Below are positions 12,734 through 22,325 of a stretch of 33,102 nt of DNA, piece by piece. The DNA is from Sulfurihydrogenibium sp. (lineage in GTDB: Bacteria > Aquificota > Aquificia > Aquificales > Hydrogenothermaceae), in NCBI RefSeq assembly GCF_028276765.1, contig NZ_JAPYVU010000019.1:1-33102 (forward strand). The letters run 5' to 3'. A program made the translations under genes and the position numbers. Under the pieces are notes generated by a model. The model had not been told where the DNA came from. It did no database searches and worked only from the letters and a program-made list of their open reading frames with translations. The number at the start of each line of letters is the position of its first letter. Position 1 is the first letter of the stretch.

Positions 12734-12769
12734 GTAAGGTAAAGCTTAGGTTTTTTAAGTATTTTCCGC

Positions 12770-12797
12770 TTGACATGTAGAAAATTTTTTGTATATT
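12770..12797 (+). promoter_or_regulatory. Promoter-like pair at the start of CRISPR leader module A
   Basis: TTGACA (12770-12775), a 16-nt spacer, then TATATT (12792-12797). The same pair, with a 17-nt spacer, opens leader module B at 19981-20009. Conservation in both copies suggests it is used. Transcription from it would run ~580 nt through noncoding DNA toward array 2. Confidence 0.55.
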
Positions 12798-13153
12798 TAC
12801 ATTAACTTTTTAATTTTTTAACTGCACCTTGGCAATTGAATAGGTTAGCCCACACAAGCTTATTTTACGTGAGACGTGAGAAGTGAGACGTTAAATATTG
12901 GTTTATCAATAATTTAGTGATTTTTATCTGATTGATTGATGACTTAGTGAGATGATTTAGCAGTCAGTAAAGCTAAGGTGTTGATAATGTGATTTTATTT
13001 TTTGATGCTTGATTTAAGTTTGTGTAGTAATAGTTTGAAAAGGATTTTGTGAAAAATGAATGTAAGTGTTTGTTGAAATAAACTTTTTAATTTTGAATTC
13101 TTTAATGCTTAATTTTTTGAAAATTTGTAATTTTTTATTTCAAAATTTTTTAA

Positions 13154-13298
13154 GATCGGGAAGTTAAAGAGTGGTATTTGCAGCGGGCTTCTGAGTTTAG
13201 GGTTTTCAGCGGTTAGCTTGTGATGGGATGTTAAAGGATAAAATATAATAATATATTTTCTGTATATCGAGGTTTGCTGCAAAAAACTTCAACTTGCG
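13154..13298 (+). ncRNA. Candidate structured RNA or regulatory block in leader A
   Basis: This ~145-bp block is almost identical to 20381-20525 while flanking leader DNA has drifted. It contains complementary segments in nested order: GAAGTT (13160-13165) with AACTTC (13285-13290), and TTTGCAGC (13177-13184) with GCTGCAAA (13276-13283). An internal AAAATATA-ATAA-TATATTTT hairpin lies near 13239-13258. No reading frame is present. A folded RNA is my inference; protein-binding DNA is an alternative. No known RNA family is recognised. Confidence 0.35.
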
Positions 13299-13322
13299 GA
13301 TTTTTTAAAAATTTGGTATAAT
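13294..13322 (+). promoter_or_regulatory. Leader promoter of CRISPR array 2
   Basis: TTGCGG (13294-13299), 17 nt, TATAAT (13317-13322). The first base of repeat 1 lies 64 nt after the end of the -10 box, exactly as for array 3 (20549 to 20613). This is the likely pre-crRNA promoter. The -35 box is weak but the -10 is consensus. Confidence 0.65.
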
Positions 13323-13385
13323 GTTTTACAACTTGGCAATTGAATAAGATTTTTACGATTTTATTTTTGAGTTAAAATTTGACGG

Positions 13386-13875
13386 GTTTGTAGCCTACCT
13401 ATGAGGAATTGAAACTTAATTAATTTAATTAAAAAGGAGATAGTGAAATGAAGTTTGTAGCCTACCTATGAGGAATTGAAACGATTTTATGGTGGTGGTA
13501 GGCTTTTTATTTATAATTCGTTTGTAGCCTACCTATGAGGAATTGAAACCAAGGGAGATTAGTTTCTTTCTTAACAAAGACCAGAGTTTGTAGCCTACCT
13601 ATGAGGAATTGAAACAAGAGTATGTAGAATACATAGTGGATAGGGCAATAAGTTTGTAGCCTACCTATGAGGAATTGAAACAAGGATGATGATTTTACTC
13701 ACATACTGACGGTTACATACGTTTGTAGCCTACCTATGAGGAATTGAAACATATTAAACAACTCCAAGCTGTCTGACTCTTTCAATGTTTGTAGCCTACC
13801 TATGAGGAATTGAACTCAAATAGGGAATGAAAAAGATTACAAAGAGTATATGTTTGTAGCCTACCTATGAGGAAT
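13386..13875 (+). CRISPR. CRISPR array 2 (8 repeats, 7 spacers)
   Basis: A 30-nt repeat beginning GTTTGTAGCC and ending GGAATTGAAAC starts at 13386, 13453, 13520, 13586, 13652, 13721, 13787 and 13852. Spacers are 36-39 nt. The seventh repeat has lost one A (GAAC end) and the eighth is cut after GAGGAAT, so the right end is leader-distal. The GAAAC-ending repeat resembles those of type I-B/III systems of thermophiles; this subtype is inferred from repeat style, since no cas genes are present. Spacer 1 (13416-13452) contains AAGGAGATAGTGAAATGAA, a ribosome site with start codon in sense orientation. Confidence 0.98.
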
Positions 13876-13994
13876 AAGGCTGTTTAAAAATTTGGTATAA
13901 TGTTTTTTACATTGGCAATTGAATAAGATTTTTGCGAATTTATTTTGAGTTAAAATTTAACGGGTGTTACATCTGAACAGTGTGGGTTTGGAAC
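13876..13994 (+). repeat. Third leader fragment with one decayed repeat of the other CRISPR family
   Basis: Directly after the broken last repeat of array 2, bases ~13881-13965 repeat the leader-proximal ~85 bp of leader A: TTTAAAAATTTGG, TATAAT at 13896-13901, TTGGCAATTGAATAAG, TTTTGAGTTAAAA and ACGGG. This is followed at 13966 by GTTACATCTGAACAGTG then TGGGTTTGG, a decayed copy of the array 1/3 repeat, not of array 2. The -10 to repeat distance is 65 nt. It looks like the stub of an emptied array-3-type locus. Confidence 0.8.
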
Positions 13995-14061
13995 TCTATA
14001 TAGTGCGGCTGATAAAGGTTTTATTAAACAAAAAATCACCACAATGCTTTTATGATATCTT

Positions 14062-14083
14062 AAACTCAAACAAATCTGAGTTT
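14062..14083 (+). terminator. Possible terminator after array 2 region
   Basis: AAACTCA (14062-14068) and TGAGTTT (14077-14083) form a 7-bp stem with an 8-nt loop, followed by TCTC rather than a long T run. It could end array 2 transcripts before tyrS. Weak. Confidence 0.3.
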
Positions 14084-14138
14084 TCTCAAACTGGTATGAT
14101 TTATACTCACTTTCTCACTTTTCCTTTTACAAATAAGC

Positions 14139-16577: not shown

Positions 16578-17093
16578 TTAATTTTCAATCCATGGTTCAT
16601 ATTCTAAAATCTGCTGGAAAGTATATGGACATTTCTTTGGAAAATCTTGCTCTGTTGGTATTTTGCCAAAATATTTTTTAGCTAAATGATGATTTTCCGG
16701 TTTTTTAAACCATTTAACTAATCTTCTAACTGCACTTTTCCATGCTAAGTCTATTTCTTCCTGGGCTTTTCTTTTTAACGAAGGACTATCATTAAATAAC
16801 CATTCTAATTCGGTTCTGGCATTATCTATACTATCAATCCAGCTATCTCCCATCGTTTCGTTTTCTCTAAAATGTTCATACTTATAAAGATGTTCTAAAA
16901 TCACAGTCATAAAACTAATTACACTTCTAAGCTCGCTTCTTCCCATACTCTCAAGCTCCTCGATAACATGCTCCCAGTCTACTAAGTTAAACTCTTTATT
17001 TTTTAATAATTCTACATTTTCTATAATCCATTGGTAAAAATCTTTGTTGTACAAATCTTTTATTTCTTCTTTATTAAGCGATTTTACAGCCAT
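16578..17093 (-). CDS. DUF29 family protein, paralogue a
   Basis: 171 residues from the ATG at 17093, chosen because GGAGGAGTAATT directly precedes it; an in-frame start 27 nt upstream would place the ribosome site inside the gene. DUF29 features are LYNKDFYQWIIENVELLKNKEF near the start, then LVDWEHVIEELESMGRSELRSVISFMTVILEHLYKYEH, and a C-terminal W/P-rich tail FPKKCPYTFQQILEYEPW. It is helical and soluble, with no known catalytic residues and no established function. The 5' two-thirds is nearly identical at DNA level to paralogue c, while the last ~110 nt match paralogue b, a mosaic suggesting gene conversion. Confidence 0.88.
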   Translation of the reverse strand: MAVKSLNKEEIKDLYNKDFYQWIIENVELLKNKEFNLVDWEHVIEELESMGRSELRSVISFMTVILEHLYKYEHFRENETMGDSWIDSIDNARTELEWLFNDSPSLKRKAQEEIDLAWKSAVRRLVKWFKKPENHHLAKKYFGKIPTEQDFPKKCPYTFQQILEYEPWIEN

Positions 17094-17095
17094 AA

Positions 17096-17620
17096 TTACT
17101 CCTCCAAGTCCTTTAGCCATGGTTCATATTCTAAAATCTGCTGGAAAGTATATGGACATATCTTTGGAAAGTCTTGCTCTGTTGGCAATCTGCCAAAATA
17201 TCTTTTAGCTAAATGATGGTTTTCCGGATATTTAAACCAAGTAATCATCTTTTTAATTGAGTCTTCCCATGCTTCTTGAATGCTTTCTTCAGCTTTTTTC
17301 TCTAAGGATGGATTCTTATCAAAAATCTTAATTAATCTATATCTTGAATTTAAGATACTTTTTATCCAGCCATTGCCCATTGTATTATTATCTCTGAAAT
17401 GTTCATATTTATATAAATGCTCCAAAACCACAGTCATAAAACTGATTGCGCTGCTAAGCTCGCTTCTTCCCATACTCTCAAGCTCCTCAATCACATTCTC
17501 CCAGTCTACTAAGTCAAAATCTTTATTTTTGAGAAGTTGTACATTTTCTGTTATCCATTTGTAAAAGTCTTTTTCGTATAATGATTTTAGCTCTTCTTTA
17601 CTAATAATTTTCGTAATCAT
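17096..17620 (-). CDS. DUF29 family protein, paralogue b
   Basis: 174 residues from the ATG at 17620, preceded by AGAGGAGTAATA; the longer in-frame start 27 nt upstream is less likely. It has the same core as its neighbours (LVDWENVIEELESMGRSELSSAISFMTVVLEHLYKYEHFRDN) and ends YTFQQILEYEPWLKDLEE. The middle part (INSRYRLIKIFDKNPSLEKKAEE) is the most diverged of the three copies. The stop is 2 nt from the start of paralogue a, so translation is probably coupled. Function unknown. Confidence 0.88.
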   Translation of the reverse strand: MITKIISKEELKSLYEKDFYKWITENVQLLKNKDFDLVDWENVIEELESMGRSELSSAISFMTVVLEHLYKYEHFRDNNTMGNGWIKSILNSRYRLIKIFDKNPSLEKKAEESIQEAWEDSIKKMITWFKYPENHHLAKRYFGRLPTEQDFPKICPYTFQQILEYEPWLKDLEE

Positions 17621-17622
17621 TA

Positions 17623-18144
17623 TTACTCCTCTAAGTTCTTTTTCCATGGCTTATAATTTAAAATATCATCAAACAAATAAGGACATCTTTCCGGAAAGTT
17701 TTTTTCGGTAGGTAATTTGCCAAAGTGTTTTTTGGCTAATTTTTCATTCACTGGTTTTTCAAACCATCTAATAAGTCTTCTAACCGCATTTTTCCATGCT
17801 ATATCTATTTCTTCTAAAGCTTTTCTTTTTAACGAAGGGCTATCATTGAATAACCATTCTAATTCGGTTCTGGCATTATCTATACTATCAATCCAGCTAT
17901 CTCCCATCGTTCCACTTTCTCTAAAATGCTCATACTTATAAAGATGTTCTAAAATTATAGTCATGAAACTAATTACACTTCTAAGCTCGCTTCTTCCCAT
18001 ACTCTCAAGCTCCTCGATAACATGCTCCCAGTCTACTAAGTTAAACTCTTTATTTTTTAATAATTCTACATTTTCCATTATCCATTGGTAAAAATCTTTA
18101 TTGTATAATTGCTTTAAATCTTGTAAATCCTTAGCTGCCTTCAT
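17623..18144 (-). CDS. DUF29 family protein, paralogue c
   Basis: 173 residues. The ATG lies inside the end of glmU (14-nt overlap), with GGTGATGGAAA just upstream. The sequence LYNKDFYQWIMENVELLKNKEFNLVDWEHVIEELESMGRSEL is nearly identical to paralogue a. The C-terminus (FPERCPYLFDDILNYKPWKKNLEE) is distinct. First of three tandem DUF29 genes with 2-nt gaps, all inside an envelope-biogenesis operon. No function is recognised; the strong conservation of the EELESMGRSE core suggests a shared binding surface. Confidence 0.88.
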   Translation of the reverse strand: MKAAKDLQDLKQLYNKDFYQWIMENVELLKNKEFNLVDWEHVIEELESMGRSELRSVISFMTIILEHLYKYEHFRESGTMGDSWIDSIDNARTELEWLFNDSPSLKRKALEEIDIAWKNAVRRLIRWFEKPVNEKLAKKHFGKLPTEKNFPERCPYLFDDILNYKPWKKNLEE

Positions 18145-20009: not shown

Positions 20010-20380
20010 TATATTAGCTTTCTAATTTTTAATTTTGTAACTGAACCTTGGCAATTGAATAGGTTAGCCCGCACAAGCTTATTTTACGTGAAAAAGTGAG
20101 ACGTGAGAAGGGAGACGTTAGAAATTGGTTTATCAATATCTTAATGATTTTTATTTGACTCATTGATGGTTTGGTGAGATGACTTAACAGTCAGTAAAGC
20201 TAAGGTATTGGTAATGTGATTTTATTTTATGATGTTTGATTTAAGCTTGTGTAGTGATGACTTAAAAGGGATTTTTTGAAGAGTAGTTGTAAGTGTTTGA
20301 TGAATTTGACTTTTTGATTTTAAAATTTTTAGTATTTAAATTTTTGAAAATTTGTAATTTTTTATTTTAGAATTTTTTGA

Positions 20381-20525
20381 GATCGGGAAGTTAAGGAGTG
20401 ATATTTGCAGCGAGCTTCTGAGTTTGTGGTTTTCAGCGGTTGGCTTGTGATGGGATGTTAAAGGATAAAATATAATAATATATTTTCTGTATATCGAGGT
20501 TTGCTGCAAAAAACTTCAACTTGCA
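20381..20525 (+). ncRNA. Candidate structured RNA or regulatory block in leader B
   Basis: Second copy of the block at 13154-13298. The same complementary segments (GAAGTT/AACTTC, TTTGCAGC/GCTGCAAA and the AAAATATA hairpin) are all intact, and only a few scattered substitutions are seen (for example TTAAGGAG for TTAAAGAG, GCGAGC for GCGGGC), none in those stems. Confidence 0.35.
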
Positions 20526-20549
20526 GGTTTTTTAAAAGTTTGGTATAAT
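20521..20549 (+). promoter_or_regulatory. Leader promoter of CRISPR array 3
   Basis: TTGCAG (20521-20526), 17 nt, TATAAT (20544-20549). Repeat 1 begins 64 nt beyond the -10 box, as in array 2. Confidence 0.65.
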
Positions 20550-20970
20550 GATTATCAGAATATTGATAGAGTAAGTTAAAAGCGATTTTAATTTTGAGTT
20601 AAAAGTTAACGGGTTACATCTGAACCGTGTGGGTTATAAAGAGTGGATATAGGTATAAAGCAGAGCATTGGTTTAGGAGTTACATCTGAACCGTGTGGGT
20701 TATAAAGTTAAATCATAGATTAGATTCCAGAGAACTATTGGGAGTTACATCTGAACCGTGTGGGTTATAAAGAGGGCGGTAAACCACCCTCGGGTTCAAC
20801 CTTTTCTCCGTTACATCTGAACCGTGTGGGTTATAAAGAATCTACTAAATATAAACTCAACCAAACTTTCTTTTAGTTACATCTGAACCGTGTGGGTTAT
20901 AAAGAATCATTTCTAATAGTCTTTCCATCTTGCTCCTCCTGTTACATCTGAACCGTGTGGGTTATAAAGC

Positions 20971-20999
20971 TTGACAAATTAAAAATACAAATGTATAAT
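20971..20999 (+). promoter_or_regulatory. Exact consensus sigma-70 promoter within a CRISPR spacer
   Basis: The spacer 20970-21005 contains TTGACA (20971-20976), exactly 17 nt, and TATAAT (20994-20999), in the direction of array transcription. It was presumably captured from an invader's promoter. It could start an internal array transcript covering the 16 downstream repeats. Confidence 0.6.
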
Positions 21000-21626
21000 A
21001 TAAATGTTACATCTGAACCGTGTGGGTTATAAAGAAAATTAAGAATGTAATCTCTAAGCAACTCCTTAAAGTTACATCTGAACCGTGTGGGTTATAAAGT
21101 TCAAACCAAGAAACGGAGAGTTTTACGAACAAGTAGGTTACATCTGAACCGTGTGGGTTATAAAGGCTTTTTTTGTTTTCTTCTACTTCGTCTAAGAAAT
21201 CGTTACATCTGAACCGTGTGGGTTATAAAGTCAAATTTTGCATCGGAGTATGATGAAGAGTTAAAACAGTTACATCTGAACCGTGTGGGTTATAAAGTCT
21301 TTAAACTTGCTACAGGTTCCAGAGTAAGGAAGTGTTACATCTGAACCGTGTGGGTTATAAAGTTATTTTTCTTACCAAATCATTTAATACTTGCTTATCT
21401 GTTACATCTGAACCGTGTGGGTTATAAAGCTTTTCAGATATTTTATGTCTACTCCGTTCTGTTCTGTTACATCTGAACCGTGTGGGTTATAAAGAAAAGT
21501 ACCAGTAGAGCTTCTAAACTCTACTGAAGCGTTCCATCTGAACCGTGTGGGTTATAAAGTTCGTATAAATCCATAATCATTTCTCTTACCTCCTAAAGTT
21601 CCATCTGAACCGTGTGGGTTATAAAG

Positions 21627-21886
21627 CGTAATTCTCCTTTATCTATTTTTTTAACACAAACAGTTACATCTGAACCGTGTGGGTTATAAAGTTCTTACAG
21701 CGATTAAACCAACGAGAGCACCAACAAGTTACATCTGAACCGTGTGGGTTATAAAGCGTAATTCTCCTTTATCTATTTTTTTAACACAAACAGTTACATC
21801 TGAACCGTGTGGGTTATAAAGTTCTTACAGCGATTAAACCAACGAGAGCACCAACAAGTTACATCTGAACCGTGTGGGTTAGAAAG
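21627..21886 (+). repeat. 130-bp tandem duplication inside array 3
   Basis: Spacer CGTAATTCTCC... (21627-21662), its repeat, spacer TTCTTACAGCG... (21692-21727) and the next repeat recur at once from 21757. The only difference noticed is GGTTAGAAAG versus GGTTATAAAG in the last repeat. Both spacers are therefore present twice. Confidence 0.95.
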
Positions 21887-22014
21887 ATTGACGAATATAT
21901 TTTTACGTCAATATCGGGAGAGTGGTTACATCTGAACTGTGTGGGTTATAAAGTCAAGGAGAGGGAGGTAGTAGCATTCCTGGTAATATGTTCCATCTGA
22001 ACCGTGTGGGTTAT

Positions 22015-22053
22015 GTAAGAGGTGAAACGTGAGACGTGAGATGTGAGACGTTT
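22015..22053 (+). repeat. Array 3 trailer with GTGAG heptad repeat
   Basis: After the broken last repeat: GTAAGAGGTGAA, then heptads ACGTGAG, ACGTGAG, ATGTGAG and ACGTT. Similar heptads occur at 1369-1386 and in both leader modules (near 12868 and 20087). Confidence 0.75.
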
Positions 22054-22118
22054 TAAAAGAATGATAATGGTTTAAATTTATTCTACGTTTTACGTACATA
22101 GTTCACGTATTATGTTTA

Positions 22119-22144
22119 AGTTCTGAACCGTGTAGATTAAAAAG
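22119..22144 (+). repeat. Decayed solitary CRISPR repeat
   Basis: AGTTCTGAACCGTGTAG then ATTAAAAAG resembles the array 1/3 repeat with four bases missing near the start and two substitutions. It lies ~105 bp beyond the end of array 3. I see nothing else definite in 22145-22320. Confidence 0.5.
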
Positions 22145-22325
22145 TCATCTTAATCACGCCAATTAATAATCACATGCTTTGGAACGAAAAATTAGAAATT
22201 TTTACAAAATTCAAAAAAGAGATTTTCCGAACTTGTTTCTTATAATAACAGTTAATAACCGATTTATAAATGACAGATTTTAGAAATTAGCTTTGATTTA
22301 AAAGATTGGTTTGAAATATTAGAAA

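Follow-up and report, generated by a model that had tools for sequence, protein, structure and literature searches.

What is the short stretch of DNA behind the second CRISPR array of a contig from Sulfurihydrogenibium sp., a hot-spring bacterium, and how did it come to pair the leader of one repeat family with a repeat of another? The window analyzed here is the whole stretch of 33,102 nucleotides of contig NZ_JAPYVU010000019.1 (assembly GCF_028276765.1). Array 2 (13386-13875) is built of the family-B repeat GTTTGTAGCCTACCTATGAGGAATTGAAAC, and arrays 1 and 3 are built of the family-A repeat GTTMCATCTGAACCGTGTGGGTTATAAAG. A preliminary description had read the sequence behind array 2 as the stub of a further CRISPR locus. 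Leader, repeat, and Cas1 usually are described as a coevolving set (PMC8092290), and a survey of the Aquificales, in which leaders are not mentioned, reported one to thirteen CRISPR clusters per genome (PMC4227106).

The genome from which the window comes (G000) is a draft of 1.75 Mb in 84 contigs, the window being its contig C19. Related genomes compared with it include G004, a single contig, and G005 (S. yellowstonense SS-5), a draft that is 82% complete. Many contigs of the two drafts end inside arrays; a second cas1 could be missed in them, and joints between repeats could be misassembled. The features of the locus are listed in Table 1.

Table 1. Features at and around the stub, with array 3 for comparison (window positions)
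Feature	Position	Strand	Remarks
Array 2 long leader, B-type, chimeric	12761..13385	+	Core is the last ~85-100 bp; start set at the onset of similarity to other leader copies
Array 2, family-B repeats 1-7 and spacers	13386..13851	+	
Terminal repeat of array 2	13852..13875	+	Body intact, last 6 nt degenerate; same in six other B arrays
Residue AAGGCTG between repeat and leader, probably B-array trailer	13876..13882	+	Compared with trailers of C8, C7, and C41; too short for a test
Stub leader core, truncated	13883..13965	+	Match to array 2 leader, closest-copy comparison, alignment, motif spacing
-10-like box TATAAT in stub leader	13896-13901		
B motif TTGGCAATTGAATA in stub leader	13912-13925		
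A-type leader end (...TTAACGG) in stub	to 13963		Followed by an extra GT at 13964-13965
Single family-A repeat, terminal type	13966..13994	+	Mismatches: body (21 nt) 1, tag (8 nt) 4
IS remnant, 3' end of a transposase-bearing IS	14024..14106	+	rve/DDE integrase core, PF00665
Array 3 leader, A-type (comparison)	20026..20612	+	
Array 3, family-A repeats under an A-type leader (comparison)	20613..22018	+	

The end of array 2 and its joint with the stub

The terminal repeat of array 2 was thought at first to have been cut where the stub was joined to it. The repeat is intact through position 13875 and is without its final 6 nt. An end of the same kind (...ATGAGGAAT, followed by degenerate bases) was observed in C8, C7, C5, and C41 of the same genome and in C198 and C227 of S. 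yellowstonense. A fusion that cut the last repeat therefore was rejected, and what had been taken for a cut is ordinary decay of a terminal repeat. A leader copy does come next, as had been stated, but it is not joined directly, since about 7 nt resembling the trailer of B arrays lie between the two. The joint to the leader lies within a shared run, TTTAAAA.

The stub leader and its closest relatives

The expected ~85-bp leader copy was found as 83 bp that match the leader end of array 2 itself with 90% identity (E=2.9e-26). Two leader variants occur in these genomes, which differ in the middle (ATTGATAGAGTAAG in A, TTGGCAATTGAATAAG in B) and have the rest in common; the leaders of arrays 2 and 3 are 84% identical over 300 bp. 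By comparison of the leader copies, the stub leader is of the array 2 (B) type and not of the array 3 (A) type, which corrects the earlier assignment of the stub to the array-1/3 type. Judged in the same way, the stub falls in the class of B leaders that precede A repeats. The -35-like region and the upstream ~500 bp, which are present in full leaders, are gone from the stub, and the -10-like box is kept. The stub also carries private changes (deletion of a T, the extra GT, a degraded tag, and one change in the repeat body).

A tandem duplication would account for the leader copy without a further locus, if the leader end of array 2 had been copied behind the array and the A repeat were coincidental or had arrived later. 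The shared B type and the 90% identity are as this would predict. The closest copy, however, is not the leader of array 2 but that of C7, a B array (96%); the A repeat stands exactly at the leader end, in the position of a first repeat; and the arrangement of a leader followed by the other family recurs at other loci and in another species. We consider such a duplication unlikely.

The leader-like part also might have been a generic dispersed repeat unrelated to arrays. This is not what was observed: in the genome of the window, 29 leader copies are 83 bp or longer, and all 29 directly precede a CRISPR repeat.

The single repeat of the stub

The decayed repeat of the other family that had been noted behind the leader was confirmed. 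Positions 13966 to 13988 differ from the family-A repeat at 1 position in 23, and no match with two or fewer mismatches was found in the dinucleotide-shuffled window. Over the full 29 nt of the A repeat, 20 of the 21 body positions are intact and the decay is concentrated in the 8-nt tag. An 8-nt tag is established for type I and type III crRNAs. Across 48 array ends, which are related and not independent sequences, the terminal repeats differ at 115 of 384 tag positions versus 19 of 1,027 body positions. Such a pattern would arise if the sole task of the last repeat were to provide the site of Cas6 cleavage; its tag would be dispensable because no guide follows it. The signature is present both in the last repeat of array 2 and in the single repeat of the stub, and the stub thus reads as a leader plus a terminal repeat, that is, a locus with zero spacers. 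It has a leader directly upstream of a repeat of known family; at least two repeats with a spacer between them would make an array, and as the stub has one repeat only, we term it a relic locus. The preliminary description is borne out in that the stub is what is left of a further CRISPR locus; that it was emptied does not follow, as a locus emptied, one never filled, and one truncated by deletion look alike here, the IS remnant beginning 30 bp past the repeat.

Ectopic single repeats with regulatory roles are described for type I systems (PMC9458426), and the stub, rather than being a dead array, could give rise from its leader and repeat to a CreA-like small RNA directing the type I-B complex to a host gene. 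The retained -10-like box would suit this. The -35-like region has been lost, however, the degradation of the repeat affects the very 8-nt tag with which the guide would begin, and no second repeat closes a guide unit downstream, where the IS remnant follows 30 bp on. As to a toxin gene, the ORF listing gave no reading frame of at least 80 amino acids between 12733 and 14177. A conserved 5' handle and a second repeat-like element around the guide mark CreA-like RNAs, a combination that the stub lacks. Such a regulatory role appears highly improbable.

Leader copies and repeat families across genomes

The claim that the same leader end stands in front of both repeat families was found to be true genome wide and in two sister genomes, by the counts of leader and repeat types and by leader trees. 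Among 46 leader copies in G000, G004, and G005, A leaders precede A repeats in 21 cases and B repeats in 1; B leaders precede B repeats in 15 and A repeats in 9. The variants still are strongly associated with their own repeat family (p=3e-5), which means that exchange is restricted. Long and healthy arrays are found at the swapped loci: on C35 a B-type leader heads 18 perfect A repeats, and on C44 an A-type leader heads 14 B repeats.

In a tree of the core leaders, the repeat family changes 10 times, and at least 4 of these changes are forced by well-supported (starred) branches; few branches of this tree are well supported, because the leaders are short and similar. In a tree of the upstream leaders, the family changes 11 times, and clustering by family was no better than in 61 to 78 of 500 shuffles. 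The idea that the ~500-bp upstream leader sorts with the repeat family was rejected on the basis of this tree.

Two further observations concern the leaders. The ~500-bp upstream leader (window positions 12830-12900 and 20045-20120) opens with TTGACA..TATATT..CCTTGGCAATTGAATAGG, apparently the core of an older leader, and continues with trailer-like GTGAGACGTGAG; the long leader may itself be a nested composite. On C48 (L058, 11096-11206), a spacer-like insert of 38 bp is flanked by direct copies of ~26 bp that comprise the leader end and the first 11 nt of a B repeat. This looks like an out-of-register spacer integration, about 15 bp into the leader.

Origin of the shared leader end

Genome G003 keeps two separate systems. 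One comprises a type I-B operon, cas1 included, and an A-like array; the other comprises a B array together with a Cas6 of its own and cas3/cas5/cas7. The cas1 of its B system reads in two pieces. The leaders of G003 end in AAAAATTAACGG (A) and CTAAAAGAAGG (B), and the B arrays of G010 carry a native-like leader. In these native B leaders, the distance from the B motif TTGRCAATAGAATA to the repeat is 13 nt (G003) or 17 nt (G010), and it is 16 nt in both the G004 B array and the relic on C45. In all living motif-bearing arrays of the clade, of either family, the distance is 39 to 40 nt, and the extra stretch between motif and repeat is the leader end that is common to A-type leaders. The longer spacing, compared with the native range of 13 to 17 nt, and the A-type end argue that what we call the B-type leader of the clade is a chimera. 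From its sequence, the part behind the B motif appears to be an A-system (type I-B) leader end, and the resemblance between the A leader end of G003 and that of the clade is short and AT rich.

One cas1 was found in each of G000 (draft), G004 (single contig), and G005 (draft, 82% complete). Its product is 64% identical to the A-system Cas1 of G003, versus 45 to 57% for the B-system cas1 fragments; on these identities the remaining Cas1 is that of the A system, and a cas1 of the B system is missing among the three genomes. Cas8b1, Cas7/Cst2, Cas5t, Cas3, Cas4, Cas1b, and Cas6 of the sole-cas1 operon score above curated cutoffs, which identifies it as type I-B; cas2 was not seen in it because the contig ends after cas1. 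A family-A array adjoins cas1 in G004 and G005.

The Cas6 associated with B arrays was traced with TIGR01877, as PF10040 gave no match. It is intact in S. yellowstonense C216 (L137, 9746-10477), beside a B array. At C8 (L051, 2307-2570) of the genome of the window, the match is limited to the first 69 residues, and the gene is apparently truncated, abutting a different sequence.

One A spacer and one B spacer share 34 nt, with the same protospacer start base and the same orientation. This single case is as expected from one machine with one PAM, and the spacer also could have moved by recombination. Neither the protospacer of this spacer nor a chimeric leader with B repeats was found in viral contigs. 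Other CRISPR-related loci were seen in passing: a type III-B locus that includes a CalpL-like protein (Lon-like/SAVED, PF18145) and its neighbors on C25 (L121) and in G004 (L122), and a Csm-type Cas10 locus on C72 (L120).

Composite loci and the right flank of the stub

The order seen in the window, a B array followed by a leader and a decayed A repeat, was found also on C4, whose orthologue, identified by its right flank, is S. yellowstonense C190. The reverse order, an A array followed by a leader and B repeats, occurs in S. yellowstonense on C198, beside cas1, and on C53. On C45 and C63, an A array is followed by a decayed native B leader and decayed B repeats. Unlike families are paired in all of the composites; where a tandem locus held the same family twice, recombination between repeats presumably would collapse it. 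The junctions differ from locus to locus, which indicates that composites arose more than once.

The IS remnant is 77 to 85% identical to about 20 places in G004 and G005, and similarity to the region upstream of tyrS in G004 resumes exactly at its end, 14106. Leaders are bordered by this IS end elsewhere too, in G004 (1561608-1561693, with the leader core from there) and in S. yellowstonense C38. Neither an array nor a stub lies beside ccsB or tyrS in G004, where the two genes are some 436 kb apart; in G003 and G001 they are adjacent but divergent, and the S. yellowstonense contig ends inside tyrS. From the arrangements in G004, G003, and G001, the ccsB-tyrS block sits at a rearrangement breakpoint of the genome of the window. 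The right flank of the stub also matches the trailer of C45 over 23 bp (E=0.023), a weak match that was not relied on.

A misjoining of two near-identical leaders during assembly of the 84-contig draft would produce a composite of this kind. Contigs that end in arrays are numerous, and neither flank pairing is present in G004, as such an artifact would predict. Its private changes, however, argue that the stub is not a misplaced copy of a known locus, and a comparable composite is present in two independent assemblies (C4 and its S. yellowstonense orthologue). There is little to recommend an artifact.

With the leader end and the repeat body almost intact, the stub might still serve as a silent landing site, an empty leader-repeat locus able to take spacers. 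No spacer is present, however, and the missing T and added GT lie beside the integration site. The upstream ~500 bp is absent as well, although the G004 locus at 1561692 has five repeats behind a leader core of ~100 bp. On balance we doubt that the stub retains this capacity.

Other features of the window

Several observations do not concern the stub. In array 1, the last regular repeat is separated from the terminal repeat at 1338 by a stretch (686-1337) that holds a TPR-protein gene (732-1229), as if the gene had been inserted into the array. In array 3, a 130-bp unit of two repeats and two spacers is duplicated with 99% identity (21596-21855). At 22116-22145, and similarly in L047, L063, L088, L091, and L093, a second solo decayed A repeat is present; in many A arrays, such a repeat stands ~100 bp past the terminal repeat, behind a GTGAGACGTGAGATG-rich trailer. 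Three DUF29 genes with mutual DNA identities of 75 to 82% lie in tandem at 16578-18144. A dispersed repeat around GTCATTCTGAGCGAAGCGAAGAATCTC occurs at 8 places, e.g., 1387, 6846, 19674, and 24799.

Proposed history of the stub

The stub probably is a CRISPR locus reduced to a leader core and a terminal repeat and fused behind array 2, a relic of repeated recombination among some 29 leader-bearing loci in a genome whose B arrays apparently were adopted by the type I-B Cas1-Cas2. In the ancestor, the A system, of type I-B and equipped with cas1, would have been separate from the B system, which had a leader, a Cas6, and a cas1 of its own, as the two still are in G003, and the cas1 of the B system would then have been lost in the clade. 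Active B arrays carry the chimeric leader, in which the A-system leader end comes after the B motif. A single I-B Cas1-Cas2(-Cas4) presumably recognizes this end and inserts spacers at whichever GTT-starting repeat comes next. B arrays with the chimeric end would stay alive and those with a native end would decay, as suggested by three cases (G004 855865, C45, and C63). Recombination between leaders, and between trailer and leader, could give rise to tandem A/B loci, and spacer loss together with IS-linked deletion could reduce these to stubs. We infer the order of these events, the routes of recombination, and the use of both families by Cas1-Cas2. The two leader copies are 580 bp apart here; recombination between them would remove array 2 and bring the A repeat under the long leader, which would be one route to a family swap.

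We regard as possible, though not yet as probable, a more general account. The B family, having lost its own Cas1, would have been adopted by the adaptation machinery of the other system through exchange of ~30 bp of leader end, which changed the spacing from 13 to 17 nt to 39 nt. The tandem A/B loci with two direct leader copies would be working intermediates, in which one array is lost by recombination between the leaders and the resident leader comes to head repeats of the other family.

Relation to known systems

In Flavobacterium columnare, type VI-B arrays are served by the Cas1-Cas2 of a type II-C system (PMC8092290). As proposed here, one adaptation module serves different repeats, which was established there by deletion of cas1 and is inferred here. 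The F. columnare leaders are unlike at the leader-repeat junction, whereas here the junction side of the leader is practically the same for both families, and intermediate and native forms are visible. Sulfolobus islandicus REY15A likewise has one Cas1 module, serving types I-A and III-B, and several effector complexes (PMC4390879); that case is about the several effector complexes, and the part of the account considered here describes no leader exchange between repeat families. Where types I-B and III-B co-occur, a III-B system without its own cas1 is thought to use the I-B acquisition machinery (PMC12814883), and a III-B locus is present here too. The repeats are alike in that case, whereas here they differ and the leader is shared. 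The sole-cas1 operon is of the same kind as other type I-B systems (Cas8b1/Cst1, Cas7/Cst2, Cas5t, Cas3, Cas4, and Cas1b); it differs from them in that its leader is shared by a second repeat family, which has a relic Cas6 of its own. The literature searched, which was mostly open access, yielded no account of repeat families exchanging leaders, and this is weak evidence of absence.

The stub alone is a modest relic, and the wider pattern of leader sharing matters more. The clade looks like a natural experiment that separates leader, repeat, and Cas1, with one Cas1, one leader end, and two unrelated repeats, and that includes native and chimeric leaders and swaps in both directions. This makes directly testable what share of integration specificity the final 30 bp of the leader account for and how small the contribution of the repeat may be, and it offers a route by which orphan arrays may be kept alive.
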